Source: a virus. From it: 26,276 nt of DNA. The notes under the pieces are model-generated. The model was given only the letters and a program-made list of their open reading frames with translations, did not search any database and was not told the DNA's origin. Shown one piece after another: positions 2,078 to 25,432 of the stretch (position 1 is its first letter; each line of letters begins with the position of its first letter). The DNA lies in the IMG/VR virus record IMGVR_UViG_3300041409_001121, positions 1 through 26,276 of that record; one strand, given 5' to 3'. A program made the position numbers and the translations under genes.

Positions 2078-2078
2078 T

Positions 2079-2585: not shown

Positions 2586-2586
2586 G

Positions 2587-5937: not shown

Positions 5938-5939
5938 GC

Positions 5940-6836: not shown

Positions 6837-7000
6837 TCGTTAGCCAAGCGAAGTCCATACCGACTTGCGGGGAGAAAGTTCAACAGATTTCAACGACCAT
6901 GTGAAACGGTGAGCACACAAACTGGCTGCTGCGAAATCCTGCGCAAATGATATTCTGCATACTGAGCTGAGAATCACTCCGTGAGCTGGAGCGCTGGACG

Positions 7001-7711: not shown

Positions 7712-7805
7712 CCGACCCAGACTGAGCCCTAACTCAGCCTAACGACTTTCAGGCGCCTTTGCCGCAACTTCTGCGCATCATTGCAGAGGACTGCGGAGAC
7801 AAGGC

Positions 7806-7997
7806 ATGGAAGCCTACTGGAACGAAATCGAACTTGCACGACGCTGGGGAATTTCTCACCGCACACTTCAGCGGTGGCGGAGCCAGAAAAAAGGGCCACC
7901 GTACCTGAAATTGTGCGGGCGCGTTGTTTACCGAGCCGCCGAAGTTCTGATTTGGGAAAACACGAACTTGCAAACCGGCGAGGCTAAGGCGTCGTGA
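7806..7997 (+). CDS. AlpA/MerR-like helix-turn-helix protein (63 aa)
   Basis: The short protein (EIELARRWGISHRTLQRWRSQKKGPPYLKLCGRVVYRAAEVLIWE) shows a winged helix-turn-helix typical of AlpA-type excisionases and small element regulators: recognition helix HRTLQRWR, then the wing GPPYLKLCGRVVYR. It heads a five-gene cassette with a large serine recombinase, so it may act as a recombination directionality factor or as the cassette's transcriptional regulator. The ATG at 7806 follows GACAAGG. Its stop overlaps the next start by 4 nt (GTGA). Confidence 0.82.
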   Translation: MEAYWNEIELARRWGISHRTLQRWRSQKKGPPYLKLCGRVVYRAAEVLIWENTNLQTGEAKAS

Positions 7998-8179
7998 GAG
8001 ACGGTCAGCCGGCTCTCCCACACCTAATAGAGATTGGCGAACTTCTGGCCGCCGGCCTCATGCGTCTTCAGGCCCTGAAGTCCAGTCGATTATCCGATCA
8101 GAACGGAGAAAGTTCGCTTCACTACGATGCCAGCCAGAGCGGTCATGCGGCACCCCTTTCTCCGGAGGCGAGCCCATGA
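7994..8179 (+). CDS. Small cassette protein of unknown function (61 aa)
   Basis: This short gene starts with GTG at 7994, overlapping the stop of the HTH gene, and ends in an ATGA overlap with the DUF2924 gene. Such precise junctions on both sides argue that it is translated. The N-terminal half is helical and hydrophobic (LIEIGELLAAGLMRLQALKSS). The C-terminal half is polar and probably disordered. I recall similar small proteins preceding DUF2924 and serine recombinase genes in Rhizobiales elements. No function is known. It could be an accessory factor in recombination or regulation. Confidence 0.65.
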   Translation: MRDGQPALPHLIEIGELLAAGLMRLQALKSSRLSDQNGESSLHYDASQSGHAAPLSPEASP

Positions 8180-8622
8180 ATGACCCAGTATTGGCCCAAT
8201 TAGCGGCTTTGAAGGGCGCACCGGCGCCCGTACTAAAAACCAAGTGGCGAGCGCTGTTTGACAGCGAGCCGCCGCCCTATAACCGGCGCTTCCTGGAAAG
8301 CCGCCTCGCCTACCGTATTCAGGAGCTGGCCTATGGGGGCTTAAAGAAGGAAACGGTTGAACGATTGCGGGTGCTGGGGAAGCAATACGACGGCAAGCCC
8401 GGGGGCCGCGCCAAAGGCCGCTCAGACCGCCTACCGATCGCCGGAACCCGGATGATCCGCGAATGGCAAGGCCTCCAACATTGCGTGACCGTTCGCGCCG
8501 ACGACTTCGAATATCAGGGCAGACCCTACAAGTCGCTGTCGGCAATCGCGCGCGAGATCACAAAGGTCCGCTGGAACGGTTGGGTGTTCTTCGGGCTGAA
8601 GAACCACCGCGGTGCTGTATGA
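8176..8622 (+). CDS. DUF2924 domain protein
   Basis: The 148-aa product matches the pattern of the DUF2924 family: an N-terminal segment LKTKWRALFDSEPPPYNRRFLESRLAYRIQELAYGG, then a C-terminal part with GTRMIREWQG, VTVRADDFEYQGRPYKSLSAIAREIT and WNGWVFFGL. That C-terminal part resembles the small DNA- or RNA-binding fold proposed for this family. It is typically found immediately before a large serine recombinase in alphaproteobacterial mobile elements, as here, and it may assist recombination. It overlaps both neighbours by 4 nt, so the products are probably made in fixed proportion. The biochemical role is unproven. Confidence 0.85.
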   Translation: MNDPVLAQLAALKGAPAPVLKTKWRALFDSEPPPYNRRFLESRLAYRIQELAYGGLKKETVERLRVLGKQYDGKPGGRAKGRSDRLPIAGTRMIREWQGLQHCVTVRADDFEYQGRPYKSLSAIAREITKVRWNGWVFFGLKNHRGAV

Positions 8623-9953
8623 GCAGGAAGCAGTCAACTGCGGTCGCGCCTCAGCAGAAGCTCCGCTGTGCGATCTACACCCGCAAATCTAGCGAAGAGG
8701 GCCTCGAGATGGAGTTTAACTCGCTCGACGCCCAACGAGAGTCCTGTGAGGCCTATGTTGCCAGCCAGCGCGCCGAAGGCTGGATCCTTGTCCCCGACCG
8801 CTACGACGATGGCGGCTTCTCCGGCGGCACGCTGGAGCGGCCGGCACTGAAGCGGCTGCGAACCGATATTGAAGCCGGCAAGGTGGACGTGGTGGTGGTC
8901 TACAAGATTGACCGGCTATCCCGCTCGCTGATGGATTTCTCCCGGCTGGTCGAGGTGTTCGATCAGCACAAGGTCACATTCGTGTCGGTGACCCAGTCCT
9001 TCAACACCACCACGTCGATGGGCCGGCTGACCTTGAACGTGCTGCTGTCCTTTGCCCAATTCGAGCGCGAGGTGATTGGCGAGCGCATCCGGGACAAGTT
9101 CGCGGCATCCCGCAAGCGGGGCATGTGGATGGGCGGATGGGCGCCGCTCGGCTACGAGGTCAAGGAGCGCAAGCTTATCGTCAACGAGACGGACGCCAAG
9201 CTCGTTCGCTCGATCTTCCAGCGCTTCCTCAAGACCGGCTCTGCCACCACCCTGGCGCGGGAACTGATCGCGGAAGACGTCCGCAACAAGTACGGCAAGC
9301 TGATCGACAAGGGCATTCTCTACAAAATGCTCAGCAACCCCGTTTATATCGGGGTGGCCGTGCACAAGAGCGTCTCCTACCCCGGCGAGCACCTAGGCAT
9401 CATTGATCAGAAGATTTGGGATAAAGTCCAGGCCCGGTTCCAGCAAAACCCACGCAAACGGGCGGCCGTCACACGGGCACAGACGCCCTCCCTGTTGAAG
9501 GGAATCATCTTCGGCCCCACCGGCGTCGCCATGTCGCCGACGCACACACGGAAGAATGGCAGGCTCTACCGCTACTATCTCAGCCAGACCGTCCTTAAAC
9601 AGGGAGCGGGCGGCTGTCCCGTTGCCCGCGTTCCGGCCGCCGAAATCGAGAAGATCGTCATCGATCAGGTCCGCATTCTGCTGCGGTCACCCGAAATCAT
9701 CGTCCAGACATGGCACAGTGCCCGCAAATCCGTCAAAGGCATGACCGAGTCCGAGGTCCGCGCAGCACTGAAGGCGTTCGACCCGCTTTGGAACGAACTT
9801 TTCCCTGCCGAGCAGGCCCGCATCATTGAGTTGGTTGTCGAGCGCGTTGATATCCGGGCCGACCGCGTCGACATCAAGCTCCGGATCGCCGGCGTTACAT
9901 CCCTCATCGGCGAGTTGACGGGCAGTCCCTCTACCCATCGGAACGCCGCATGA
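8619..9953 (+). CDS. Large serine recombinase (site-specific integrase)
   Basis: The 444-aa protein has an N-terminal resolvase catalytic domain with YTRKS (probable nucleophile Ser24), QRESCEAYV, IDRLSRS and the long conserved block NVLLSFAQFEREVIGERIRDKFAASR. This is followed by a Recombinase domain (about residues 175-280; LGYEVKERKLIVNETDAKLVRSIFQRF, NPVYIGVAVHK) and a C-terminal region. The zinc-ribbon part is reduced, with few cysteines. Such enzymes integrate and excise elements between short att sites. An upstream in-frame ATG exists at 8463, but the ATGA overlap with the preceding gene points to 8619. It is the only recombinase in the window and may mobilise any of the surrounding modules. 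Confidence 0.93.
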   Translation: MSRKQSTAVAPQQKLRCAIYTRKSSEEGLEMEFNSLDAQRESCEAYVASQRAEGWILVPDRYDDGGFSGGTLERPALKRLRTDIEAGKVDVVVVYKIDRLSRSLMDFSRLVEVFDQHKVTFVSVTQSFNTTTSMGRLTLNVLLSFAQFEREVIGERIRDKFAASRKRGMWMGGWAPLGYEVKERKLIVNETDAKLVRSIFQRFLKTGSATTLARELIAEDVRNKYGKLIDKGILYKMLSNPVYIGVAVHKSVSYPGEHLGIIDQKIWDKVQARFQQNPRKRAAVTRAQTPSLLKGIIFGPTGVAMSPTHTRKNGRLYRYYLSQTVLKQGAGGCPVARVPAAEIEKIVIDQVRILLRSPEIIVQTWHSARKSVKGMTESEVRAALKAFDPLWNELFPAEQARIIELVVERVDIRADRVDIKLRIAGVTSLIGELTGSPSTHRNAA

Positions 9954-10375
9954 CGATCGCCACCCAAGCCATCAAAACCAGCATCAGCGGGGATGGCCGC
10001 ACCGCCACGGTCAGCATCCCCATCACTTTCCGGCAACGCGGCGGGCGTAAGCAGATCCTCACACCTCAGGGTGCCACGCCGTGGTCGGCTGCCCCACGCG
10101 TAGATACGGCCCTCCTCAAAGCCATCGTCCGGGCGCATCGCTGGCGGCAGTTGCTGGAAGGCGGCGAGTACGCCTCATCGTCGGAATTGGCTAAAGCTGA
10201 GAAGGTCAACGCCTCTTATCTGAGCCGAATCCTTCGTCTGACGCTAATCGCGCCGGAGATCATCGAGGCGATCCTGGCCGGACGCCAACCCAGGACGCTT
10301 CAACTCGATGATTTGCTCAAGCCACTGCCAGCGGCATGGTCTCAGCAGCATTCGAGGCTGTCTCGTCCGCAGTAG
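9950..10375 (+). CDS. HTH-containing protein downstream of serine recombinase (141 aa)
   Basis: The start codon overlaps the recombinase stop (ATGA at 9950). The N-terminal half (residues 1-45) is beta-rich with SIPITFRQRGGRKQILTP. The C-terminal half is helical with a likely helix-turn-helix (SSSELAKAEKVNASYLSRILRLTLIAPEIIEAILAGRQP) of the kind seen in DNA-binding accessory proteins of integrative elements. Proteins of this type commonly close the DUF2924-recombinase cassette in Rhizobiales. It may regulate the cassette or help the recombinase to choose its direction. I see no other motif. Confidence 0.75.
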   Translation: MTIATQAIKTSISGDGRTATVSIPITFRQRGGRKQILTPQGATPWSAAPRVDTALLKAIVRAHRWRQLLEGGEYASSSELAKAEKVNASYLSRILRLTLIAPEIIEAILAGRQPRTLQLDDLLKPLPAAWSQQHSRLSRPQ

Positions 10376-11629: not shown

Positions 11630-11671
11630 ATAGGTTGCAGTGAATGTGGAACTGCACCGAGGAGCGCTGTG

Positions 11672-13117
11672 ATGACCGAAGCGCAGCACAAGCTGGATTG
11701 GGCAAAGCTGCTCAACGGCAATCGGCGTAAGCCACCATCGGCGCCGAGCCCGCAGAAGGGCAAGGAGCAGAGGATCCCGCTCGAACGGGACTATGATCGC
11801 CTGCTCTTTTCCACGCCGGTTCGGCGCCTTGCCGATAAAACTCAGGTCTTCCCGCTGGAGCGCAACGACAGCGTCAGGACTCGCTTGACGCACAGCCATG
11901 AGGTCGCGAATCTTGCGCGGAGCATAGGTACCACCCTCTTCTACAATCACGGGGAAGAGCTCGGCTTGGCGACCATTCCGGATGCAGCTCGCTCGGTCCC
12001 GTCGCTTCTGGGCGCGGTCGGCCTCGCCCACGACCTCGGGAACCCTCCCTTCGGTCACCAGGGCGAAGATGCCATGCAGTCCTGGATCACCCGTCACTCC
12101 GTACCCAAGGGAGAGGATCAGAACTCGTTCGACATTTTCGCCGGCGCCGGGCTCACGGCTGCCCAACAGCGGGATTTTGAAAAGTTCGAGGGCAATGCGC
12201 AGGCGCTCCGCCTCCTGACCCGGCTCCAGATTATCAACGACGGCTACGGTCTGAACATGTCCTATGCCGCCCTCGCGGCCCTCATGAAATACCCCGTGCC
12301 CTCCGACAAGATCGACAAATCCATCCAATCGCGGAAGAAGTTCAACTTCTTCCAGTCGGAGGCCAAGATCGTCGACGACGTATGGCGGAACACTGGCCTC
12401 GAGGAAGGCGTGCGCCATCCCCTAACCCTTGTGATGGAAGCCTGCGACGACATCGCCTATTCGGTTTTGGACCTGGAAGATGCGGCCAAGAAGGGACTGA
12501 TCTCGTTCCACGACCTGATCGCCTCCTTGAGCCACGACGCTAACCATGACCCGCAAATCGTTGATATTTGTGAGCAATCCAGCAAGCGCGAGACTGAATA
12601 CCGCCAATCCCAATTGTCCGGCGCTGAGCTCTCCGACATCTCGATGCAGATGCTGCGGGTCCAGGGCATCGGCCTGATGGTCAATGCCGTGACTGACGCT
12701 TTCGTCGCGAATCGGGATACAATCATGGCCGGGGAATTCCAGGGCGAGCTCTTGGCAGGATCACGGTCCGAGGCGCTTTGGAAAGCCCTGAAAGGATTCG
12801 CGCGAAAGCACGTCTATTCCCATCGCAGCGTGATCGAGGTCGAGTTAGAGGGACACCGCACCATTCATACGTTGATGGACGCGTTTTGGCAGGCCATCCT
12901 GAACCGGGGTGCCGAAGATTTCGTGAACCCCCGTGGCACGAAGCCCTACGATGCCTATGTCTATTCGCGCATCTCAGAAAACTACCGGCGCGCTGCGCAG
13001 ATGTCGGAAATGCCGATGCGTTATCGAGAACTTCAGCTGATGACGGACATGATGTCCGGCATGACCGATTCGTTCGCCGTCGAGCTCTGCCGCAACCTGG
13101 TGTCCTTGAGGGGTTAA
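11672..13117 (+). CDS. dGTPase-like HD-domain deoxynucleotide triphosphohydrolase
   Basis: The 481-aa protein has the layout of deoxyguanosinetriphosphate triphosphohydrolases: ERDYDRLLFSTPVRRLADKTQVFPLERNDSVRTRLTHSHEVANLARS near residues 35-85, the metal-binding HD motif HDLGNPPFGHQGE at about 120, and the later conserved EACDDIAYSVLDLEDA near 255. The family removes triphosphate from dGTP or other dNTPs, and some members protect bacteria by draining the dNTP pool during phage infection. Starting at ATG 11672, just behind a GTG at 11669, gives good spacing to GAGGAG. It is the first gene of operon A and ends 2 nt before the nucleotidyltransferase. A housekeeping role is possible, but its position among nuclease and methylase genes favours an accessory one. 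Confidence 0.9.
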   Translation: MTEAQHKLDWAKLLNGNRRKPPSAPSPQKGKEQRIPLERDYDRLLFSTPVRRLADKTQVFPLERNDSVRTRLTHSHEVANLARSIGTTLFYNHGEELGLATIPDAARSVPSLLGAVGLAHDLGNPPFGHQGEDAMQSWITRHSVPKGEDQNSFDIFAGAGLTAAQQRDFEKFEGNAQALRLLTRLQIINDGYGLNMSYAALAALMKYPVPSDKIDKSIQSRKKFNFFQSEAKIVDDVWRNTGLEEGVRHPLTLVMEACDDIAYSVLDLEDAAKKGLISFHDLIASLSHDANHDPQIVDICEQSSKRETEYRQSQLSGAELSDISMQMLRVQGIGLMVNAVTDAFVANRDTIMAGEFQGELLAGSRSEALWKALKGFARKHVYSHRSVIEVELEGHRTIHTLMDAFWQAILNRGAEDFVNPRGTKPYDAYVYSRISENYRRAAQMSEMPMRYRELQLMTDMMSGMTDSFAVELCRNLVSLRG

Positions 13118-14014: not shown

Positions 14015-17000
14015 GTGGTGTACCGACTGGGAAAGCGAGCCATTTCGCAATACATCCGGACGGATTGCCAACGACGCCTACGTCTCGATCTGTACAGCAC
14101 GGCTGCCGACCGCGCAGCGGCCGGAGCACCCGAACGGGATGCAGCTCGTCCGGGATTCGCGCTGATCACCCAAGCCGGCCGAAATCACGAGCGGCAGAAG
14201 TTCGCCGAGCTGTCCGAGGTGCTTCCGCACCTGGTGCTCCACGGGGCGCCGACGGCCTTCACGGAGGGAGAAGAGCGCGCCTTCGGTACGATTCTGCTTC
14301 GCGATCATCTTCCCCGCGTCGTTGCTAACCAGTTGCTGATCGAGGCGGAGTATCAGGTCACCCCGGCCTTCGTGGCTGCCCACGGGCTCTCGGATCTCGC
14401 CGACGGCAGAGCGTTCAACGGGGCCAACCACCTCGAATTCTCAGCAGTCCGTCCGGACATCATTCACGTCGTACCTCCCAGCGGCGGACGGCGCCGTGCC
14501 ATCTCAATTGACGGCACAATCACCCCCGTCGCCGACGACAGGTTCGGGCTGAAAGTGATCGACGTGAAGATCTCAGGCGAGGCATCGCCCGCCCATTTCT
14601 CGGAGCTCGCCTATTACGGGATTACGTTGGCGGGCTGGTTGGACGCAAATGGCCTTAGCGACCGCTTCTTCGTCCTCGCAGAAGCCGCAATCTGGCCAGG
14701 CCGCCACGACGCGTCCAGTATCGAGGTCCAGTTGCGTCAGGACGTGAAGGATCACGTAACCGACCGGCATCAGGAAAAATACTTGGCTGCGCTGGCCGCT
14801 GACCTGGAAATGATGCCGCCGGAGGTCGTTCTGGGGCGCGTGGCCAGGTTCTTGCGGCACGACCTCCGCAATATCCTGAACGAACCGGATTGGCGCAACC
14901 TGCCATGGCATGTCGATCACAGATGCTCCGGTTGCGATTATCTCGGTTACAAATGGTCGACCGAGGAGGATGCCGCCGCGGCTATCCCGACCCCGCCAAC
15001 ACGGGCCGCCCAGGCACAGTCGGCCTACTGTTGGACCATGGCGAAGGACCTGGACCATCCTAGCCGCGTGGCCGGCCTGACCGAAGGGGCGCGCGGCAAG
15101 CTTCTTGAAGGCGGGATCGCGAACGTTCAGAGCCTTTCAGCAGCGTCGGCGGGCAACGTGGTCTTCGAATCGCATCAAACCCTCCGCGCAAAGCGAACAG
15201 TGCTCGTCGCCCGCGGCCTGACCTTGGTGAACGCCCTCCCCGCAGCCATACCGGATCGGGCCGGCACATCGGCCGTCTTGCCGAGCTTCTCCGACATCCG
15301 CGTCAACATTTCCGCGGACTTTGACGTCGGATCGGGCCTGACTTTCGCTTTCGGATACAACATCTCGTACGGCGTTCCGAACTCGCCACGCACCGCAAAC
15401 GCGGGGTATGGCAGAGCATTCACAAATCGCGACCGCGCCCTGCTGGTGCTGGAGCGTTCCGTTGACGCCGAGGGAGAGATCCTGCGTCAGTGGCTCGAGT
15501 TCATGATGCAGGATATCGCCCGCGCACGGGCCGATACGCTCGCGGGCTATCGGCTGTTCGATCCCAACAAGCGAGACGTCACGATCCAGTTCTATATCTG
15601 GGATCGGCTGGTCTTCAATCACCTCTGCCGCATCATGGGGAGGCATCTCGACATCGTGCAGGCTCCCGTTCGGATCGGGGGCACCGATGTCAGCCCGATG
15701 TCCTGGCTGTTTCCGGCGGAAACCGTACTCGAGGACGCAAGATACACCAGCGTTTCGTCTCCGCTGACCATCGTCTCTGAGATCGTGAACAGCCTCGTCG
15801 CGGCCCCCGTTCCGCACCACTACGGTCTCGTCAGCCTGGCCAACGATCTCGACGCCGACCGCCGCGTCCGCACCGACGGATCGACCTGGGCCTTCAACGT
15901 CAACAAGTTCTACCTCGACCCGCTCTCAGACCAGATTCCGTCAGAGCGCGGCAGTGAGATCTGGCAAAGGAAGTCGCCGTTCAGATCGCAGGACTTTCAG
16001 TGGCATCAGGAGCAAACGAGACGCGTTGTACGCGACAAACTGCGGGCGCTATCGTGGATCGTCGACGGCATCAGTCGCCGTCTGCGCGACACGCTCAGCG
16101 CGGAAGCGCCAACGGTCGGCGAGATTTTTCGGCCTGAACAACCGCTGACCGGCGTCGGTTTCGATGGTCTGATGCTGTATCAGCACACACGGCTGATGCA
16201 GGCCGCACAGAGGCTTGAGAATGACCTGCTGCTGGCGATGCCTGCCCATGAGCGTGAAGCTCGCTTCATGAGCGCCCGAGTCGATGGAACATTGATGGGA
16301 GAAGAGCGCTCCGCGTGCCTTCGGCACTATGGGCTAGGCAACTCGATCGCCAATCCCTCGGTGTATGCTTTCGAACTCAGAGAAGCATCGCGCGAGGTCC
16401 GCATTAAGGATGGCGACTTTCTCCTCTCGTTCGCGCCCGAGGACCTGCTGGCGCGGGTTCAGCATGAGACCGCGGCCGGATTCAAAACCCAGTTTCCAGC
16501 TCTACAACAGACGCTTCCGATCCAGGGCGGAGACTACCAGGATTCTGCGCGGGCATCGCTGCGAGTTTCGGTCAGGAAAATCGACAGGGCAAACCGCCGC
16601 TTGATCATCGAAGCGTCCGCGCTGCTTCAGACGGCAATTCGGTTGGGCATCGCGAACCTCGATTTCAACCCGCGTCAGGGGCGCTTCGGTGTGGTCGATC
16701 CGGTCGTCATTGATTTCTTTTCTCGCCGGCTGAGAGATGCGCTGTCCGGCCGTACCGGCCAGTGGGGTTCGCCTGGGATCAGAAATCCCCCGTTGGCCCT
16801 CAGCCGACCCTTGTTTCAAGCGAGGATCGCCAATGTCGGCCGGCTGAATCCCAGAGCCTCGGCAAGCGTGCCAGCGGAAACCTTCATTTGGAACGCCGAC
16901 GTGGCCGCGAGCACGGCAACCGGCCTGTCCGCGGCTGATGTGGTCGCCATCGCCCGCACGATAGCTCCGGACATCACGCCTAAGCAAAGCGAGGCGATCA

Positions 17001-18436
17001 AACGCTCCGTTCAACGCCAATTGGCGATCTGGTGGGGACCGCCCGGAACCGGCAAGAGCGCTACAGCGCAAGCGTACCTCGCGTCCTCCCTGAAACATGC
17101 GGCAGACACCGGCGCCGGCCTGCGTATCGCGGTCACCGGCTTCACGTGGGTCGCCATTGATCACGTCGCCAAAAGGCTTCCGGGACTGCTCTCCCAGCTG
17201 GGTATCGCCGGTCGGGTACGCCTAGTGCGTCTCGCGTCGGGTGCAGGATCCCTAGAGTCGGTCGCGCCCGAGCTTCAACAGTTTGTGCTACCGATGAATG
17301 ACCGAGGGGAGCCGGATCGTCAGGACCTGGAATCCGCTCTCTCCGCACAAGACTCCCTGGTCCTTGTAGCAAGCACCGTCGAGCAGATCGCGAAACTCGG
17401 CGGGTCGGTGATAGCTCCCCTGTTCGACCTCGTGCTGATCGACGAAGCGTCCCAGGTCGATGTCGCCCATGCAATCGTCGCATTTACCAAGCTGGCGCCC
17501 GGCGCGCGGCTGACGGTGGTCGGCGACGACCTGCAGATGGCCCCAATTCATCCCATCGAGCCGCCCGTCGGCGCCGAGCATCTCGTCGGCTCGATATTCG
17601 ATTACTACCGCCATTATCGACGACGCGGCCAGGCCGACCCCGGGATTGAGCGGATCATGCTGGATCGCAGTTTCCGTTCGAATTCGGAGATTGTCGATTT
17701 CGTAAGGCTCGCCGGCTACCAGGATCTGCACGCCAGCGACAAAAGCAAGGATATCCAGTTCGCAACGGAAATTCCCTTGACGCCGACTGCGCCGGCGTCA
17801 TGGCCGGCCGGGCTGATCTGGTCGCCGGCTTATGCACAGACCCTCGACCCCGGCAAACCCCTGACAGCGGTCATCCATAACGACCGTTTCAGTAGCCAAC
17901 GCAACCAGGAAGAGGCTGACCTCGTTTCCAGCCTGGTCTTAGCATTGTTCGAGAGCCGATTAATGGACATCGACGCCGCCAACGCGGCACCTTTGTCCCC
18001 CGTCGACTTCTTCCGTAAGGGCGTCGGCATCGTGACGCCCCATCGGGCACAGCAGGCCGCCGTCTTCGAGAGGCTGGCCGCGGCGCTTGCGGGACGCGTC
18101 GACGCCAATGAAATCTTCGCCGCCGTCGACACGGTCGAGCGTTTCCAGGGACAGGAAAAGACCGTGATGATGGCCAGCTTCGGCCTGGGCGATAAGGATC
18201 AGATCGCGGCGGAGGAGACTTTCCTATTCCAGCTCAATCGCTTCAACGTCACGGCATCGCGCGCCAAGGCCAAGTTCATCGCCATCATGAGCCGCAGACT
18301 CTTGGATCACCTTCCGACCGACAAGGTTGCCCTCCACCAGTCTCGCCTCATCAAACATTTTGCCGATGGCTTCTTGCAGAGATCCTTTCCAATATCGCTG
18401 CCGGGTCTGGGCGAGTGCGAGTTGCGTACGAGATGA
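14015..18436 (+). CDS. RecB-like nuclease fused to Dna2/Upf1-type SF1 helicase (1473 aa)
   Basis: The N-terminal part resembles RecB-family (TM0106-like) nucleases: LGKRAISQYIRTDCQRRLRLDLY at the start, RPDII near 147, KVIDVK near 185, then HFSELAYYGITLAGW in place of the usual QxxxY helix, and a cysteine cluster CSGC near 305 with a further Cys about 30 residues on. The C-terminal third is an SF1B helicase with Walker A GPPGTGKS at about 1008, DEASQ at 1143, VVGDDLQMAP, LDRSFRSN, VTPHRAQQ, RFQGQEKTV and NVTASRAK. About 600 central residues have no motif I recognise. The start is GTG 14015 behind CCGGAG. Such proteins process DNA or RNA ends. The stop overlaps the methyltransferase start. Confidence 0.88.
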   Translation: MVYRLGKRAISQYIRTDCQRRLRLDLYSTAADRAAAGAPERDAARPGFALITQAGRNHERQKFAELSEVLPHLVLHGAPTAFTEGEERAFGTILLRDHLPRVVANQLLIEAEYQVTPAFVAAHGLSDLADGRAFNGANHLEFSAVRPDIIHVVPPSGGRRRAISIDGTITPVADDRFGLKVIDVKISGEASPAHFSELAYYGITLAGWLDANGLSDRFFVLAEAAIWPGRHDASSIEVQLRQDVKDHVTDRHQEKYLAALAADLEMMPPEVVLGRVARFLRHDLRNILNEPDWRNLPWHVDHRCSGCDYLGYKWSTEEDAAAAIPTPPTRAAQAQSAYCWTMAKDLDHPSRVAGLTEGARGKLLEGGIANVQSLSAASAGNVVFESHQTLRAKRTVLVARGLTLVNALPAAIPDRAGTSAVLPSFSDIRVNISADFDVGSGLTFAFGYNISYGVPNSPRTANAGYGRAFTNRDRALLVLERSVDAEGEILRQWLEFMMQDIARARADTLAGYRLFDPNKRDVTIQFYIWDRLVFNHLCRIMGRHLDIVQAPVRIGGTDVSPMSWLFPAETVLEDARYTSVSSPLTIVSEIVNSLVAAPVPHHYGLVSLANDLDADRRVRTDGSTWAFNVNKFYLDPLSDQIPSERGSEIWQRKSPFRSQDFQWHQEQTRRVVRDKLRALSWIVDGISRRLRDTLSAEAPTVGEIFRPEQPLTGVGFDGLMLYQHTRLMQAAQRLENDLLLAMPAHEREARFMSARVDGTLMGEERSACLRHYGLGNSIANPSVYAFELREASREVRIKDGDFLLSFAPEDLLARVQHETAAGFKTQFPALQQTLPIQGGDYQDSARASLRVSVRKIDRANRRLIIEASALLQTAIRLGIANLDFNPRQGRFGVVDPVVIDFFSRRLRDALSGRTGQWGSPGIRNPPLALSRPLFQARIANVGRLNPRASASVPAETFIWNADVAASTATGLSAADVVAIARTIAPDITPKQSEAIKRSVQRQLAIWWGPPGTGKSATAQAYLASSLKHAADTGAGLRIAVTGFTWVAIDHVAKRLPGLLSQLGIAGRVRLVRLASGAGSLESVAPELQQFVLPMNDRGEPDRQDLESALSAQDSLVLVASTVEQIAKLGGSVIAPLFDLVLIDEASQVDVAHAIVAFTKLAPGARLTVVGDDLQMAPIHPIEPPVGAEHLVGSIFDYYRHYRRRGQADPGIERIMLDRSFRSNSEIVDFVRLAGYQDLHASDKSKDIQFATEIPLTPTAPASWPAGLIWSPAYAQTLDPGKPLTAVIHNDRFSSQRNQEEADLVSSLVLALFESRLMDIDAANAAPLSPVDFFRKGVGIVTPHRAQQAAVFERLAAALAGRVDANEIFAAVDTVERFQGQEKTVMMASFGLGDKDQIAAEETFLFQLNRFNVTASRAKAKFIAIMSRRLLDHLPTDKVALHQSRLIKHFADGFLQRSFPISLPGLGECELRTR

Positions 18437-20469
18437 GGAATCGACTGCCGAAGCGATCGTTACTGGACGAGGGAGATGTCCCTTTTATCGGGCTTGCCCG
18501 TCTCGCTTATCGCGAAAGCGTGCGTCCCCGCGACGTATATCAGTCGCATAAATGGTTCGCCCGGCGCCTCGCCGTGACTGCGCGTGCTCTACTGATCGCG
18601 GCCGCCACACCCGCCGGCGGATCGTTCTGGAAATCATACTACACCGCTCCCTCCTACAAGGGGATCGACGTCCTCGATCCCTTTCTCGGTGGAGGCGTAA
18701 TGGTACTGGAGGCGTCGCGCCTCGGCGCAAACGTGCACGGCCTCGATGTAGAGCCTGTTGCAACTGCAATTTCGTCCTTCCAGGGCAAATTACGGTCGCT
18801 GCCGGCGCTCGAAGCGGCCTTGGATAAGCTTTGTACCGACGTTGGCGGAAGACTCGCTCCGTTCTATCGCGCCCAAAACCGGAGCGGCGAGGACGAGATT
18901 CTCCTGCATGCGTTCTGGGTCCAATCGGTCGCCTGCAGAAACTGCGGTCACGGCTTTCACGCTCATCCAAAGTTCAAGCTGGGGTCCGATCCGCGCATCG
19001 GCCGGCAATGGATCGCTTGTCGCGCCTGCAGCAATATCCTCCAAACCAAGATCGGTGCGAAAACATCCGGCTGCCGGTGCAGCGTTCGCACCCAAGCCGA
19101 GAGAGGACACGTCGACGCAGGAACGGCCGTCTGCCCTTGCTGCGGTCACCGGCAGAGGCTCATCGATGAAGCCGCACTCGCCGGCAAGCCACCATCGTTC
19201 GAATTGTTCGCAGTCGAAACTATCCCGACGGGCAATGAACGGCGCTATCAGGGTAACGAACGAACGATCAGGACGGCGACGGACTTCGACCGCCAAATGT
19301 TTGCCGATGCCGCGAAGGCGCTTGTTGCGCTACGGGCGGACAAACCAGCATTTCTGCCCCCCTCGCCTATTCCGCGCGAAGGCAGGCTGGATGATCGCCT
19401 CTTCAGGTATGGCTATCAAAACTATTCGGAGCTGTTCGCGGCTCGCCAGCAGCTTCATCTCGGTCTGCTTGCCGAGGCGATAGAAAGTCTCGAAGGCGAT
19501 GTGCGCGAAGCTTTCTCGATAGCCTTCTCCGACCATTTGACCACGAACAATCTGCTTTGCGGATATGCGGGCGACTGGCGGCGGCTGAGCCCACTCTTCT
19601 CGATCCGTGCCTTTAGACACATCGCCCGCCCGGTCGAAATCAATCCTTGGCTACGAAAGAATGGGCGGGGCACCTTCCCGAACGCGGTTCGTGCAATCCA
19701 GCGCGCGTCCAAGGCACTGTTGGCGCCCCAGGAGCCGACCCGCGCCGGCACCGTCCGGCCGGTTCAAGATCAAGCCTCCGGGTCATGGGATCTGCGTCGC
19801 GCCGACGCGCAAAACATTGCGCATCTGGCCGATGCTTCGATCGGTTTGGTTCTGACGGATCCTCCTTACTTCGACTACATATCCTATTCCGAGCTCGGCC
19901 ACTTCTTCGTACCTTGGATGGCGCGCTTTGGATTGATCGACGGATCATGCTTGGCGTCGTTTCCGGCCGACCAGCTTGCTGCGATCTCCAAATCACCCGA
20001 TGCTGCAGAACGATTTACAGATGGTATGACCCGTGCCTTCAAGGAAATCCGTAGGGTCTGCAAGGAAGATGCTCGGATCGTCTTCACCTATCAAAACCTC
20101 GATGGACGCGGCTGGGAGGCACTGGCCAAAGCCATGTCCGAAAGCGGCGTAGTCCCGATCAAGACGTTTCCTCTCCTCGGCGACTGCGGCACGCGCCTCC
20201 ATCGCAGGGAACGATCCATCTCATGGGACGCGATCGTGGTCTGCAAAGCGGGCGAAGCGAACTCGTGGATCGCCCCCCCCGATCTTATTGCGCAAGCCAC
20301 GACCAAGCTTCCGCGGCAATGGTCAAAGAAAGTCCTTACCGCGGGACTGGACTTCTCGGAGAGCGACGCGACGAACATGTCGTTCGCGGAATCGATCGTG
20401 ATCGCAGCGAGGACGGGCACCAAGCAAACAGCTGCCCGGGAGAGACCGCGCCGAGCCGCACAGAGCTGA
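18433..20469 (+). CDS. Zinc-ribbon DNA amino-methyltransferase (DUF1156/COG1743-like)
   Basis: The 678-aa protein starts in an ATGA overlap with the helicase gene. It opens with a conserved segment ending HKWFARRLAV, followed by AdoMet-binding motif I (DPFLGGGVMVLEASRLGANVHGLDVEP, about residues 80-107). It then has zinc-ribbon pairs (CRNC ... CRAC, CRC ... CPCC, about 172-240) and much later the catalytic motif TDPPYFDYISYSELGHFF near 475. It should methylate adenine N6 or cytosine N4 in DNA. The wide separation of motifs I and IV with inserted zinc ribbons matches COG1743-type methylases of defence loci. No separate restriction enzyme gene is present, so the fused nuclease-helicase may be the effector. 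Confidence 0.85.
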   Translation: MRNRLPKRSLLDEGDVPFIGLARLAYRESVRPRDVYQSHKWFARRLAVTARALLIAAATPAGGSFWKSYYTAPSYKGIDVLDPFLGGGVMVLEASRLGANVHGLDVEPVATAISSFQGKLRSLPALEAALDKLCTDVGGRLAPFYRAQNRSGEDEILLHAFWVQSVACRNCGHGFHAHPKFKLGSDPRIGRQWIACRACSNILQTKIGAKTSGCRCSVRTQAERGHVDAGTAVCPCCGHRQRLIDEAALAGKPPSFELFAVETIPTGNERRYQGNERTIRTATDFDRQMFADAAKALVALRADKPAFLPPSPIPREGRLDDRLFRYGYQNYSELFAARQQLHLGLLAEAIESLEGDVREAFSIAFSDHLTTNNLLCGYAGDWRRLSPLFSIRAFRHIARPVEINPWLRKNGRGTFPNAVRAIQRASKALLAPQEPTRAGTVRPVQDQASGSWDLRRADAQNIAHLADASIGLVLTDPPYFDYISYSELGHFFVPWMARFGLIDGSCLASFPADQLAAISKSPDAAERFTDGMTRAFKEIRRVCKEDARIVFTYQNLDGRGWEALAKAMSESGVVPIKTFPLLGDCGTRLHRRERSISWDAIVVCKAGEANSWIAPPDLIAQATTKLPRQWSKKVLTAGLDFSESDATNMSFAESIVIAARTGTKQTAARERPRRAAQS

Positions 20470-20475
20470 ATCAAA

Positions 20476-21543
20476 CTAATTGGAGCCGAACGTCGACGCT
20501 TCTGCCAGCCAGCGGCGCGCGGCCTCAACCCGTGTCCTGTGCAGGACGGCAAGATGTCCATAGAGCTCGGCGAGCATTTGAAACGTGGTCAATTCGGTGA
20601 CAATGGCGAGTTTGCGATATTCCCGGTGATTGACCTCAAAGCGGCGCCCCCCTTCGGTGTCCGCCAGAAGTTGCCGACAATATTCTTCCATCGAGACCCT
20701 GCCATTCGGCTCCGCCTTCACCAAGTCTCGCATAAGGTCCAGATCGTACTGCCACCGGCTCTTGGCGTACTCAACCTGCCACGCGGTCAGGTAGCCTGAT
20801 TTTTCGTAACTCTCCGGAAATGCCGGTCATCCGAAGGATGGGCTAATAGATAGTTGTTAATATCGTTCAGACTATGGATCTTATCCGACCGGCGTCGTGC
20901 CGCCTTTAAGACTGCGTTCGTCGCATCGGCCATCAGCCTGAGGACGTCGGTTCTAGCTCCCCAGAATGCTATCTCCTCGGCAGACGCTGGCAGAAGCACA
21001 TCCCCGACCTCCACAAGGTGCTCACTTTTCCGAAGGTCTTCAGGGCTGCTATAATCCGGATCGGACACTAAGCTGACGCCACCGAAAGCATAGGCTTGCG
21101 CCGCAAGCCTCGAACAAAAACTGCTTCCCGCTTCCGGCGCTACGCAACTTTCGCGCCACGACGGCGATCGCCTCACTTTTGGAATACTCTGTTCCAGTAG
21201 CAGCCCTTGCAAAGTCCGTAATCTTGCGGGTTGGCCCTTCTCCAAGCGGTAGCCTCGATCGCAAAACCAGTACCGTCGCATCGTCCTCGAAGAACATGCG
21301 TTGGATGTTGCTCGAATGCACTCCCTCGGCGGTCGCATCGATGATCGATGAGTGCTGCACGTAGATCATCGCGTGCGAAATAGCGCTGTTGGTGGCCCGC
21401 CGAACCACCTTGCTTACCTTGTTTGGCCCTGATGTCAGGATTATATCGCCTACCTGTAATCGCTGATCGTTCAATTTCTTCATCTGTTGGAATTGCCTCA
21501 AGCTCATCGGACTAGACACGCGCCCACATTCCGTGGGCCGCAA
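20476..21543 (-). pseudogene. NlpC/P60 (YiiX-like) papain-fold hydrolase gene with two frameshifts
   Basis: Three minus-strand frames together spell one protein. Frame 1 (from 21543 or ATG 21507) gives LQVGDIILTSG and ISHAMIYVQHSSIIDATAEGV, the His-containing half of permuted NlpC/P60 (YiiX/YaeF) enzymes. At a run of five T (about 21114-21118) the frame must shift to give FCSRLAAQAYAFGGVSLV, the catalytic Cys half. Near 20816-20820 a second shift is needed to move from AHPSDDRHF into PESYEKSGYLTAWQVEYAKSRWQYDLDLM and the tail ending at 20476. Family members cleave amide or ester bonds in peptidoglycan, lipids or proteins. The gene is convergent with the methyltransferase and divergent from the radical SAM operon. 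Sequencing errors at homopolymers could explain both shifts. Confidence 0.65.
21522..21538. repeat. Perfect hairpin in the divergent intergenic region
   Basis: GCCCAC and GTGGGC form a perfect 6-bp inverted repeat around the loop ATTCC. It lies between the hydrolase pseudogene (leftward) and the radical SAM operon (rightward). If the hydrolase starts at 21507, the hairpin is in its leader; if it starts at 21543, the hairpin is in its first codons. It could be an operator or an mRNA structure. No T-run follows, so a terminator is unlikely. Confidence 0.4.
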
Positions 21544-21611
21544 CTTTTCATGTATTAATCTTATTCCATCACTCTTTGGTAGAGCACCGAGCAGCTCTTA
21601 TTGGTCAAGCC

Positions 21612-22721
21612 ATGCCCAGCCTACGAGCCGCCCCAACCGACCTGCCGGAATCGCTCCGGAACGTGGTCGAATACCGGAAATCCGGTCTCAGCCTAAACCA
21701 CGTCGTGGGCTGCCCGCTGGACTGCGGTTACTGCGTGCGCCATCTATTCCAGAATTTCGAGATGAAACAGCCCCATCTGGTGTTAAATGATAGCGACGCG
21801 GTCGACCTTCTAGTTGGTCATTGGGCCTTTCGGCCTCACACGACGCCAATTCAAATCTTCAATCGGGCGACCGATCCGTTCTTGCCCGGCGTCAAGGATC
21901 ACCTCTTTGATTCTCTTGAGCATATGGACAGCAGAGGGCTCACGAATTCCGTTCTCGTCATTACCAGATGGAAAATCGAGCGCGCAGACGTCGCGCGATT
22001 GGAGCGACTAAGGAATTTGCGTCTGACGATATTGGTCACGTGGTCCGGCATCGACGACGATCGTATAGAGCCCGTTGACAGCGCCCATGCCGAAAACTCG
22101 CTTCGTATCCTCAGCAAGAACGCATCAAGGACCAAGTCGATTCTGTATTGGCGCCCGCTCATTGCTGGCCTTAACGACAGCGACGTGCACATGAACCGGG
22201 CACTGGCATTATCCTCGCTCGCTGGCGCCACGGTCTTCACTGGCCTTTTTCATCGCGCCGAGATTCGGGAGTATCTTCGACTCTCAGGCGTTCCTGATGT
22301 CTATCCGGACATTGCCCGCAGAAAAATTCTACCGGCAGAAACGGAAATGCGCGTGCTCAGCGCCTTTGCGGCCAGGCCCCTTTTCCGGAAAACGTCTTGC
22401 GGAGTAGCCTATGTGCACCGCACTGCGGACTACAATGGGCACTATGGCATACAGGAAATCTGCGATATCTGTCCTCCGCAGCAAATAGCCCGATGCGCCA
22501 TCGCCCATCGTCAGCCGGAACTTTTCAAAGTGAAGGAACTTGCCGAAATTGCAAACTTGGATGCGGATCAAATCGATATCGATCAGCGTAAGATCCAGCT
22601 TAACAACAGCTCCGAACAGCAACGTTACTTCATTCAACACACGCTGAATTACCAGGTCCATGATCGAGATCACCCTCACGTCTACGGACGACATGGAAGG
22701 GCGGAGGTGGGATGGGAATAG
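21612..22721 (+). CDS. Radical SAM enzyme, spore-photoproduct-lyase-like
   Basis: From ATG 21612 the 369-aa protein shows NHVVGCPLDCGYCVRH, a canonical C-x3-C-x2-C cluster (Cys34, 38, 41) that binds the 4Fe-4S cluster and AdoMet to make a 5'-deoxyadenosyl radical. Later strands (IQIFNRATDPFLPG, VLVITRWK, LRLTILVTWSGIDDDRIEP) match the partial TIM barrel of the SPL-like group. The C-terminal region adds KTSCGVAY and EICDICPPQQIARC, four cysteines that might bind a second cluster or zinc. A TTG start at 21576 is possible. This is the first gene of operon B and overlaps the exonuclease gene by 10 nt. The substrate is unknown. A damaged or modified base is conceivable. Confidence 0.88.
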   Translation: MPSLRAAPTDLPESLRNVVEYRKSGLSLNHVVGCPLDCGYCVRHLFQNFEMKQPHLVLNDSDAVDLLVGHWAFRPHTTPIQIFNRATDPFLPGVKDHLFDSLEHMDSRGLTNSVLVITRWKIERADVARLERLRNLRLTILVTWSGIDDDRIEPVDSAHAENSLRILSKNASRTKSILYWRPLIAGLNDSDVHMNRALALSSLAGATVFTGLFHRAEIREYLRLSGVPDVYPDIARRKILPAETEMRVLSAFAARPLFRKTSCGVAYVHRTADYNGHYGIQEICDICPPQQIARCAIAHRQPELFKVKELAEIANLDADQIDIDQRKIQLNNSSEQQRYFIQHTLNYQVHDRDHPHVYGRHGRAEVGWE

Positions 22722-23302
22722 ACACCGAGCGGTTCTGGGTTGTCGATGTCGAAGGAAGTGGCAGCTCGCCGCCTGAGATCGTCGAATTGGCAATGCTAGA
22801 AGTGGCAAATCTTGTGTTGACGGACAACAAGCGCCACTGGCTCGTCCAGCCCGAGCGCGGAATTCAACCGGCCGCCACGCGGATCCACGGGCTAACAGAA
22901 GACGACGTCGCCGATGCCCCTTCCATGGAAGACATCGCCGACGACGTCGTTATGTGGCTAGAGGCCGCGCCTATCGTTGGGCACAACGTCAAGGTTGAAG
23001 TTGAAATTCTCAAGAAATCGCTGCCCGATTGGGCGCCTTCGGTCGCCATCGACACCTTGAGGCTTTCAAAGGCCCTAAAGCCTGGCTTGGCCTCCTACAG
23101 CCTAGCCAATCTGGGTGCGGAATTCGGACTAGCCGATCAAGCCGCCCAGCGTACCGGGGCCCAGCATCACTCTGCCCTCTACGATACGACGTTGGCCGCC
23201 CTCTTGTTGGTTCACCTGCTTTCTCCTCTGACGAGAGACGAACGCCAGACGGCGCTTAGGGACGCGAACATCCTCGATCCGAGACAGGGATCTCTCTTGT
23301 GA
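22712..23302 (+). CDS. DnaQ-like DEDDh 3'-5' exonuclease
   Basis: The 196-aa protein has the exonuclease fold: Asp12 and Glu14 in VVDVEGSG (Exo I), IHGLTEDDV (typical of DnaQ/DinG-type domains), GHNVKVEVEIL (Exo II region, residues 90-100) and HSALYDTTLAALLL with His153 and Asp158 (Exo III). At the Exo II position normally held by Asp there is Glu96, so catalysis may be altered. The enzyme would trim DNA or RNA from 3' ends. GGAGG at 22703-22707 and ATG 22712 are inside the end of the radical SAM gene, and the stop overlaps the kinase start (GTGA), indicating a tightly coupled operon. Confidence 0.87.
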   Translation: MGIDTERFWVVDVEGSGSSPPEIVELAMLEVANLVLTDNKRHWLVQPERGIQPAATRIHGLTEDDVADAPSMEDIADDVVMWLEAAPIVGHNVKVEVEILKKSLPDWAPSVAIDTLRLSKALKPGLASYSLANLGAEFGLADQAAQRTGAQHHSALYDTTLAALLLVHLLSPLTRDERQTALRDANILDPRQGSLL

Positions 23303-23892
23303 TCCCCCCTCCGATAAAGATCGGCATCACCGGCACGCACTCGACCGGCAAGTCTTCCTTCCTTGAGGCGGTCCGGCAGAAGCTGGAACCCGACCTAAAG
23401 GTTCACCGCATCGGCGATTTCGCAGTGAGGGCGAAGGAGCTCGGATTTCCGATATTACGAAGCCACAATTTCGAAAGTACGCTTTGGATTATGTCCGAGT
23501 GCATGCGACTCGAAGCGGAGGCCTCGCTCGCGAACGATGTCGTTCTCGTCGATCGCCCGGTATTAGATGCGCTTGGATATCTGCATGCGGCTCTGCGGCT
23601 GTCCGGCCGGAAGATCGGCGACAGACGGTCCGCAGAATTGGCGGCGATCGTCAAGGCACACACGCCCGACTACGATCTGCTCGTCAGGACGTCCTTTGAT
23701 GAGACCATCCGAATCGGCGAAGGCCGAGATCAAGACGCCGAATTCCGCCAAGCGGCGGCCTCCTCGATCGAGACCTTGGTTTCCGAAATCGCGCCGGAGG
23801 CGGAGGTGCTGACCTCATCGAACCAGGACGAGATCGTGCGGCGCGTCGTTGCGCTAGTCTCATCGCGGCGGCAGGCTGCCGTGAGCCGATGA
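23299..23892 (+). CDS. P-loop nucleotide kinase-like protein (AAA_28/NadR-type)
   Basis: The 197-aa protein begins with IKIGITGTHSTGKSSF, a Walker A motif (GTHSTGKS, residues 12-19) of the type found in NadR-like and thymidylate-kinase-related ATPases. It also has VVLVDRPVLDALGYLHA (about 82-98), a Walker B/substrate-binding segment with the DR signature of nucleoside and nucleotide kinases, and a lid-like stretch rich in charged residues (ETIRIGEGRDQDAEFR). A role in phosphorylating a nucleoside, nucleotide or related small molecule is likely. The GTG start overlaps the exonuclease stop, and its own stop overlaps the aldo-keto reductase start. Context suggests it prepares or salvages a nucleotide-like compound handled by this operon. 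Confidence 0.78.
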   Translation: MIPPPIKIGITGTHSTGKSSFLEAVRQKLEPDLKVHRIGDFAVRAKELGFPILRSHNFESTLWIMSECMRLEAEASLANDVVLVDRPVLDALGYLHAALRLSGRKIGDRRSAELAAIVKAHTPDYDLLVRTSFDETIRIGEGRDQDAEFRQAAASSIETLVSEIAPEAEVLTSSNQDEIVRRVVALVSSRRQAAVSR

Positions 23893-24806
23893 ACCACCGC
23901 CTTTCCGCGGCCCTGCGCCGTATCGGTCTCGGATGCATGCCGCTGACGGGCATCTATGGCCCAATCTCGCGAGATACCGCAATCAAGATCATTCGACGCG
24001 CCCTGGATCTTCATATTACCCACTTCGACACGGCCGAGATCTACGGCCCCTACCTAAACGAAGAACTGTTGTCCGATGCTCTTGGCTCCGATCGGACGAG
24101 CGTCGAAATCGCCACCAAATTCGGATATCGCCTCCAAGACGGCAAGATCGTTGGATTGGACAGCAGACCGCAGTCTATCCGCCTAGCCGTGGAAGGCTCG
24201 TTGCGGCGACTGCGTCGTGAATACGTCGATGTCCTTTACCAGCATCGACCTGATCCCGCGGTGCCGGTCGAAGATGTCGTCGGCACTATGGCGGACTTGG
24301 TGAAAGAGGGGAAGGCATTGGCGTTGGGGTTGTCGGCCACCGACCAAGACTCGCTTCGGCGCGCCTCAGCGACACACCCGATTGCTTTCATTCAGAATGA
24401 GTACTCTCTAATCGCTCGCGATCCGGAGAAGGCACACCTGCTGTGCCTGCAAGGAACCTCAACACAATTTGTCTGCTATTCACCGCTGGGACGCGGGATA
24501 CTCGCAGGTAAGCCGCCGAAGGCGACCCAGCAATCTTCGACAGATTACCGCAACAAGGATGCTCGATTTCAACCGGAACGCCACGCCGAGCTCGTCGACC
24601 AGCTTGCACCGCTCTGGCAGATCGCCGCCGCTCAATCAGTTTCACCTGCCGCAATTGCTCTGGCCTGGCTGCTGTCCAAAGCACCCGCAATCCGCGTCAT
24701 TCCAAGTGCGACCGACGAGGGGCAATTGAACGCCAACGTCCTCGGTGAGGAAATAGCTTTGTCGGCCGAAGAAATCGGCGCGCTCGACCTAGTCGCTGCG
24801 ACTTAG
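23889..24806 (+). CDS. Aldo-keto reductase family protein
   Basis: The 305-aa protein is a complete NADPH-dependent aldo-keto reductase: RIGLGCMPLTGIYGP at the N-terminus, THFDTAEIYGP with Asp47 and Tyr52, ATKFGY with Lys77, and VDVLYQHRPDP with His119 complete the catalytic tetrad. AFIQNEYSLIARDPE, CYSPLGRGILAG and IRVIPSATDEGQLNANV form the later barrel strands and the phosphate-binding site for NADPH. Such enzymes reduce aldehydes and ketones. It is the last gene of operon B, starting in an ATGA overlap with the kinase gene. Such genes are often found in metabolic operons, so its conservation with the exonuclease and radical SAM genes would be informative. No clear terminator is seen after it. 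Confidence 0.92.
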   Translation: MNHRLSAALRRIGLGCMPLTGIYGPISRDTAIKIIRRALDLHITHFDTAEIYGPYLNEELLSDALGSDRTSVEIATKFGYRLQDGKIVGLDSRPQSIRLAVEGSLRRLRREYVDVLYQHRPDPAVPVEDVVGTMADLVKEGKALALGLSATDQDSLRRASATHPIAFIQNEYSLIARDPEKAHLLCLQGTSTQFVCYSPLGRGILAGKPPKATQQSSTDYRNKDARFQPERHAELVDQLAPLWQIAAAQSVSPAAIALAWLLSKAPAIRVIPSATDEGQLNANVLGEEIALSAEEIGALDLVAAT

Positions 24807-25043
24807 CGAGGTCAGTCAGAAGGCCCCTGCCGTTGTCTTCGTCAGGCTCATAAACAAATGGCAGTTCGTATTGATCATTGTAGCGCGGATCCGGCGGCGA
24901 CCGGCAGATGGACAATGTGCGTATCGACTACAATGTGGCGTTGCAGGCAGTGTTAAACCGTGAAAGAATCGCGATGGGCCTTGCTCCGGGATTTCCGGCC
25001 CATTCTTGCGTTTCTTGGGAGCCAGACCAAACGTACGACTGCC

Positions 25044-25085
25044 TGGCTGGAGCGGGAGGATTCGAACCTCGAAATGGCGAGTTAG
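25044..25085 (-). other. 3'-terminal tRNA fragment, candidate attachment-site scar
   Basis: On the minus strand this segment ends with a T-arm (loop TTCGAAT, stem CGAGG/CCTCC with one mismatch), the acceptor half CGCTCCA, discriminator G and an encoded CCA (25044-25046). A matching 5' acceptor half (TGGAGCG) is not found within 120 bases upstream on that strand, so only the 3' part of a tRNA is present. The T-to-acceptor sequence and GCCA end look most like tRNA-Gln or tRNA-Ser types. Fragments of this kind often mark the att boundary of an integrated element. Confidence 0.55.
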
Positions 25086-25342
25086 AAATCAGATCGTCTC
25101 GCCTGTCCGAGAGAAGCGGCAAAATCTCTTTTCACCGAAGCTCATAAGTAGCTCGAAAGGTTCGAATTTAGAGAACCGTACCGAATGGTTGGAGTCCAGA
25201 GCTCCGGAGAGAAACGGGCTTTTCGGAGAACAATATGCGGCTCTGCCGATCGGGGAGTCCGAAGCTCAAATGACAAATCGCTGCCGTTATTGGGCTCAAT
25301 CGCCGGCGAGATCCGCCGGAGAATGCGCGTCTCAGACCAAGC

Positions 25343-25432
25343 TGGCGGAGAGAGTGGGATTCGAACCCACGGTACAGTTTCCCGCACACACGCTTTCCAA
25401 GCGTGCGCCTTAAGCCACTCGGCCATCTCTCC
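25343..25432 (-). tRNA. tRNA-Ser (anticodon GGA)
   Basis: The 90-nt minus-strand gene folds as a class II tRNA: acceptor GGAGAGA pairs with TCTCTCC, followed by discriminator G and encoded CCA. The D-arm contains GGCCGAGTGGCTTAAGGC, the anticodon arm CGCTTGGAAAGCG has anticodon GGA (plus-strand 25396-25398), there is a long variable arm, and the T-arm has GGTTCGAATCC. It reads serine UCC and UCU codons. It marks the return to the core chromosome beside otsA. Confidence 0.97.

Follow-up and report, generated by a model that had tools for sequence, protein, structure and literature searches.

The subject of this analysis is a 26,276-nt stretch of viral DNA (IMG/VR record IMGVR_UViG_3300041409_001121, the whole of which we call the window), in which four consecutive genes on the + strand encode a radical S-adenosylmethionine (SAM) protein, a 3′-5′ exonuclease, a nucleotide kinase and an aldo-keto reductase (AKR). 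We conclude with considerable confidence that they represent a mobile, defence-associated operon that modifies nucleotides. The unit that recurs across genomes is a three-gene core of radical SAM protein, exonuclease and kinase with the AKR as an optional addition, and what we observed directly is which genes are present and how well they are conserved, that the catalytic residues are intact, the folds, the MilA-type residues in a linked enzyme and the defence-island context. The radical SAM gene (21612..22721, 369 aa; open reading frame (ORF), alignments, AlphaFold2 and Foldseek) belongs to a family without a name and has an ambiguous start, either the ATG at 21612 or an in-frame TTG at 21576. 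It is followed by the genes for the DEDDh exonuclease (22712..23302, 196 aa), the AAA_28/thymidylate kinase (TMPK)-like P-loop kinase (23299..23892, 197 aa, GTG start) and the AKR (23889..24806, 305 aa), all four being open as ORFs. Their overlaps of 10, 4 and 4 nt (22712 to 22721, 23299 to 23302 and 23889 to 23892) are exactly those described in the original prediction, made from the sequence of the window, and the genes form one tightly overlapping set that is probably translationally coupled. A sigma-70-type scan of positions 20400-25400, which is uninformative for this host, returned no promoter-like site.

Homologues of the radical SAM protein were found on 38 plasmids and, among GTDB genomes, in 151 candidate stretches that yielded 80 loci for further use; 92 loci were analysed in total. 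With the radical SAM protein as bait (its presence in the 92 loci is therefore given), the exonuclease gene adjoins it in 90 of the 92 and the kinase gene in 87, the spacing being tight. These loci come from six phyla: Pseudomonadota (Alphaproteobacteria and Pseudomonas), Actinomycetota, Cyanobacteriota, Myxococcota, Acidobacteriota and Nitrospirota. The recurrence of gene order and tight spacing across phyla indicates that the arrangement is not due to chance. The AKR gene is present in 47 of the 92 loci. Thus the four-gene co-occurrence proposed originally holds for the core and fails for the AKR, which is absent from about half of the loci; the lack of a gene from most homologous clusters, named there as grounds against the idea, is partly seen for the four-gene unit and not for the core. 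In one actinobacterial genus (247 genomes) the radical SAM gene was found in 20 genomes, the kinase in 10 and both in 8 (Fisher p = 1.7e-8), though this search scored only a few candidates per genome and has probably missed some copies. In the genus of locus L048, 20 of 247 genomes gave a match, about 7 of these being partial or broken. Elsewhere the distribution is patchy, with a match in 1 of 384 further alphaproteobacterial genomes and in 0 of 395 further actinobacterial ones, and most copies of the core are carried by plasmids and mobile islands. No DNA match to the operon was found in E. coli. Among 50,697 phage records there was no homologue, and none was confirmed in IMG/VR; we therefore rejected the idea that these are phage-encoded metabolic genes. 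Also, the near-identical operons with a dCMP-deaminase-family neighbour in an Acidobacteriota bin (L043:10521-11033) and a Nitrospirales bin (L044:7596-8102) suggest either transfer across phyla or mis-binning. Two operon copies that have diverged from each other occur in Actinokineospora inagensis and likewise in Pseudonocardia sp. MH-G8 (loci L057/L062 and L081/L086).

The first protein is, on its invariant CX3CX2C motif and AlphaFold2 fold, a radical SAM enzyme. The predicted [4Fe-4S] motif C34-x3-C38-x2-C41 (GCPLDCGYC, 21711..21734) is 100% conserved in 92 sequences, the alignments having been made with 8, 61 and then 92 homologues, and four further cysteines (C263, C284, C287 and C295, 22398..22496), 97-100% conserved in the same set, likely form a second metal site, possibly for an Fe-S cluster or for Zn. 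The model has a mean pLDDT of 93, and a Foldseek search places it among solved radical SAM enzymes with a partial TIM barrel. By sequence, no significant match was obtained in Pfam, NCBIfam, PADLOC or PHROGs, the PF04055 profile itself included; a sequence-only search of the PDB with the radical SAM and kinase families gave nothing useful, and a viral fold library returned generic radical SAM matches only. Spore photoproduct lyase (SPL) is among the fold matches with a TM score of 0.46-0.51 and 12-13% identity, but SkfB and the pyruvate formate-lyase (PFL)-activating enzyme are equally close, so that the SPL-like strands noticed originally amount to a generic radical SAM resemblance and we do not assign the protein to the SPL family. 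It shares a partial-barrel fold and the C-x3-C-x2-C spacing with the SPL and PA0069/Rv2578c families, to which a weak profile match exists for a Streptomyces paralogue only; unlike them, the operon protein shows no significant sequence match, has the extra cysteines and lies in a different context. Viperin is one of the weaker fold matches (13-16% identity), and since neither PADLOC, NCBIfam, Pfam nor PHROGs gave a significant match to a family, membership in the viperin/SAND family was likewise rejected. These results bear on a repair or recycling role, whereby the exonuclease would remove a damaged 3′ nucleotide, the radical SAM enzyme and AKR would restore it and the kinase would return it to the pool. 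The SPL match and the salvage logic of an exonuclease joined to a kinase are what such a role would lead one to expect, but the generic nature of the SPL likeness, the conserved cysteines beyond the radical SAM motif and a patchy, defence-island distribution unlike that of house-cleaning genes make it very unlikely. Nothing in the data points to lesion excision and repair, and the excision, remodelling and recycling of an altered nucleotide that had been envisaged is not borne out.

The other proteins of the operon have intact catalytic residues. The second has the DEDDh pattern D-x-E...D/E...H-x4-D together with a Pfam RNase_T match (1.2e-17) and is predicted to be a DEDDh 3′-5′ exonuclease; D12, E14, H153 and D158 are 98-100% conserved and the ExoII acid is D or E. 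A PADLOC match to PDC-S48 covers only the exonuclease domain of this gene, and its identification as that known defence system was dropped. The kinase (Pfam AAA_28, 2.2e-9) carries the Walker A motif GTHSTGKS (G12..K18, 23332..23355), which is intact in all 71 kinases from operons that have no thymidylate synthase (TS) gene and in 13 of 16 from operons that have one. Its best PHROGs match is the thymidylate kinase PHROG 2107 (1.2e-10), and for its AlphaFold2 model (pLDDT 96) the best PDB folds are thymidylate kinases, followed by NadR and deoxynucleoside kinases. By Walker A and fold it is therefore TMPK-like, with a nucleoside monophosphate (NMP) as its predicted substrate, and the earlier designation of a kinase-like ATPase is supported. 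In the AKR (Pfam Aldo_ket_red, 2.2e-59; no PADLOC model) all four residues of the catalytic tetrad, D47, Y52, K77 and H119, are found in 100% of 46 sequences. Both the exonuclease and the carbonyl reductase were named correctly. In a tree of system and generic AKRs, made by a short search with no bootstrap, the alphaproteobacterial system AKRs and those of actinobacteria and Pseudomonas form two groups with generic AKRs between them, requiring at least two changes. By this tree the AKR slot appears to be filled from at least two AKR lineages, and the recruitment of the same activity twice into one slot argues that carbonyl reduction belongs to the pathway.

The operon is enriched in defence islands and mobile elements. 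At E <= 1e-10, 271 PADLOC models matched among 139 neighbour ORFs of 17 loci against 11 models among 128 ORFs of 14 arbitrary regions of the same genome set; PADLOC models are redundant and the ratio is exaggerated, but its direction is clear. No PADLOC or NCBIfam model exists for the radical SAM protein that would make it a known defence system. Rhizobial neighbours include CBASS (patatin, DncV-like cyclase and ThiF), Shedu, ABC-three-component and QueC-like (Qat-type) genes as well as toxin-antitoxin pairs. CBASS is a frequent neighbour (near 3 of the 17 scanned loci) and signal nucleotides are common in phage defence, for which reason we considered a nucleotide second messenger made during infection to trigger a separate effector. 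No conserved sensor or effector accompanies the three-gene core, however, the neighbours differing from locus to locus, and we see little chance of this.

The genes that accompany the core point to pyrimidine nucleotides. In 21 actinobacterial loci, a gene annotated as thymidylate synthase and a nucleoside diphosphate kinase (NDK) gene lie upstream of the radical SAM gene. This TS homologue is far closer to the CMP 5-hydroxymethylase MilA (7e-73) than to the best true TS (8e-14), and its reading as an ordinary thymidylate synthase was therefore rejected. It retains the catalytic Cys in 21 of 21 sequences, K133 in 21 of 21 and A176 in 19 (Gly in the other 2), and the Lys133/Ala176 pair, in place of Arg/Ser, sets the preference for CMP over dCMP in MilA (PMC5175136). 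By these signature residues the linked enzyme is a MilA-type CMP hydroxymethylase, an activity that is predicted. The NDK of locus L007 is a tandem protein with the catalytic NLVH(T/S)SD in both halves. An NMP hydroxymethylase, an NMP kinase and an NDK would together span the CMP to CTP level. In rhizobial loci an HD protein related to EF1143-type/SAMHD1 dNTPases follows on the same strand, 34-65 nt 3′ of the operon, a dCMP-deaminase family gene lies 3′ of the operon in one Acidobacteriota and one Nitrospirales bin, some loci of Nocardia and Actinokineospora have NUDIX genes at their sides, and A. vitis has a dGTPase upstream of the operon. The nucleotide-derived signal or toxin that the original prediction had offered as its second option gains support from these linked genes (for CMP-hydroxymethylase, NDK, dNTPase and deaminase) and from the defence islands.

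The same genes allow two other readings. Phage thymine-hypermodification pathways contain TS-family hydroxymethylases, P-loop kinases and radical SAM enzymes, and many copies of the operon are plasmid-borne, so that the element which carries the operon might have the pyrimidines of its DNA modified for self-marking or restriction evasion, as phages do with modifications based on hydroxymethylpyrimidines. Against this, the hydroxymethylase signature is for CMP (ribo) rather than dCMP or dUMP, there is no conserved restriction partner, the kinase has no match to 5-hydroxymethyldeoxyuridine (5-hmdU) DNA kinases and is closest to a thymidylate kinase among PHROGs, and the phage records searched hold no copy; we regard this as quite unlikely. 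Alternatively, the operon may make a nucleoside natural product, an antimetabolite comparable to mildiomycin or polyoxin that is either secreted or kept inside the cell, its spread on plasmids reflecting microbial competition and not phages. The closest relative of the TS homologue belongs to mildiomycin biosynthesis, Streptomyces copies lie behind a regulator cassette of helix-turn-helix (HTH), ATP-binding and DUF6415 genes, and a paralogous radical SAM gene stands in a MurA-aldolase-glycosyltransferase cassette. All the same, a conserved exporter, peptide ligase and N-glycosidase are all missing, a nucleoside destined for export would hardly call for an NDK and an NMP kinase, and the proteobacterial copies sit in defence islands, which leaves a natural product unlikely. 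The operon resembles the mildiomycin system in its actinobacterial MilA-like enzyme with the CMP-specifying residues and differs from it in having no N-glycosidase or peptidyl steps and in its links to an NMP kinase, an NDK and an exonuclease, links which make it probable that the product stays in nucleotide form.

The paralogue just mentioned is distant (24-27% identity) and was found on Streptomyces plasmids (L012:6619-9185, L103:5649-8185 and L013:6580-9215) where it immediately follows genes for a MurA-like protein and a class II aldolase. In L012 and L103 a GT4 gene and a second gene, whose protein is of hexapeptide type in L012, lie upstream of the MurA cassette, and after the paralogue there is a C-terminal remnant of the canonical radical SAM gene followed by exonuclease and kinase. 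Given this identity and the canonical remnant beside it, the paralogue was treated as a neighbour and not as part of the system. A MurA-type enzyme beside a radical SAM gene is reminiscent of PolA-PolH of polyoxin/nikkomycin biosynthesis.

The comparison that guides our preferred reading is with viperin. Like the operon, viperin and the prokaryotic viperins (SAND) with CMPK2 combine a radical SAM enzyme and a nucleotide kinase in defence, the product of the operon likely being a nucleotide analogue as well. Viperin and CMPK2 make 3′-deoxy-3′,4′-didehydro-CTP (ddhCTP) and their human genes are adjacent (PMC10058120). The operon differs in that its radical SAM protein falls outside the viperin family, with four extra conserved cysteines, and in the addition of an exonuclease and often an AKR; by analogy it would work like viperin-CMPK2 with a radical SAM enzyme that by sequence is no viperin. 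We consider it an evenly balanced proposition that this is an anti-phage operon in which a modified pyrimidine nucleotide, raised to the triphosphate, poisons phage nucleic-acid synthesis while the exonuclease trims host 3′ ends. In this scheme the radical SAM enzyme would attack a pyrimidine nucleotide, most probably at the monophosphate level, by hydrogen abstraction and rearrange or oxidise it; the AKR, where present, would reduce a carbonyl left by that step; the TMPK-like kinase would add the second phosphate (NMP to NDP); and an NDK, from an own copy in Streptomyces and a housekeeping copy elsewhere, would produce the triphosphate. Phage polymerases would build in the analogue and their synthesis would be stopped or corrupted. 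The exonuclease would most likely clear the analogue from host 3′ ends as self-protection, for which there is a precedent in a viral 3′-5′ exonuclease that is reported to remove the viperin product ddhC from RNA (PMC9415739); alternatively it may supply the pathway with its starting nucleotide by releasing it from nucleic acid. The SAMHD1-like dNTPase of some lineages could lower competing dNTPs. In actinobacteria the hydroxymethylase, the radical SAM enzyme with the AKR, the kinase and the NDK would lead without a gap from CMP to a modified CTP, and outside actinobacteria the radical SAM enzyme would start from a normal nucleotide.

Several points weigh against this anti-phage scheme. The clue to CMP comes from the actinobacterial branch only, about a quarter of the loci, and neither a TS nor an NDK gene is present in the window. 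The MilA-type residues imply a ribonucleotide, whereas a TMPK-like kinase and a dNTPase suit deoxynucleotides. The kinase could instead be a nucleoside kinase, AAA_28 also containing NadR, and Walker A is lost in the kinases of L048, L059 and L067, all in operons of the type with TS and NDK, where the kinase may be dispensable or re-purposed. The Streptomyces regulators are annotated as natural-product genes and secondary metabolism is possible there. Also, substrate, product, step order, toxicity, the role of the exonuclease and the anti-phage effect are inferred, that of the exonuclease being a guess.

In the window, the region upstream of the operon contains a serine recombinase gene along with phage-like genes, a gene resembling dGTPases and a pair of helicase and methyltransferase genes. 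The HD-domain dGTPase-like gene (11669..13117, +; PADLOC dGTPase 2.4e-74) is loosely associated and outside the operon. With this gene and the HD dNTPase-like gene after rhizobial operons, the system resembles phage-defence dNTPases (dGTPase, SAMHD1-like), from which it differs in that the dNTPase gene is optional and absent from most operon loci. A DpdJ/IGHMBP2-like helicase gene (14015..18436, +, 1473 aa; PADLOC DpdJ 4e-38) and a DUF1156/HmaB-like DNA methyltransferase gene (18415..20469, +; PADLOC HmaB 7.8e-18; NCBIfam DUF1156_antiphage 2e-15, below cut-off) overlap by 22 nt and probably form a separate two-gene defence module. A phage- or satellite-like block (1589-10375 and 25343-25432) has two repeated small-terminase genes of about 76% identical DNA and also ParB-methyltransferase, D5 primase, Toprim and serine recombinase genes, and a tRNA-Ser(GGA) near the right end of the window could be an integration site. 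In several alphaproteobacterial loci a DUF3800-type gene recurs by the operon, upstream in L006, L025-L027, L030, L031 and L033 and downstream in L019 (12296-13432); it is Pfam-confirmed in L019 and annotated in L006.

In keeping with the original prediction, which knew of no pathway with these enzymes, the gene set was found neither in the libraries nor in the open-licence papers that made up the literature searched, most subscription journals lying outside its scope. Nucleotide modification as defence is itself an active topic: a 2026 study with DefensePredictor validated E. coli defence units with TS, dNMP kinase and 5-hmdU kinase domains (PMC13092281). The operon is like these in using nucleotide-modifying enzymes, presumably against phages; the main text of that study does not contain the terms 'radical', 'aldo' or 'exonuclease', and its systems were tested in E. 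coli, where the operon was not found. More speculatively, and here our own view is doubtful, the operon may stand for a new class of innate immunity, a dedicated multi-enzyme antiviral pyrimidine pathway with its own kinase and NDK, self-protection by an exonuclease and an origin independent of viperin, in which Streptomyces might build the antiviral nucleotide from CMP via a hydroxymethyl intermediate. If true, antiviral nucleotides would be reached by radical SAM enzymes along a second and independent route, spread over six phyla, and there would be a new chain-terminator-like chemistry with its natural antidote. It would also give a function to a radical SAM family that has no Pfam, NCBIfam or PADLOC model, with neighbouring genes that hint at which metabolites to look for.

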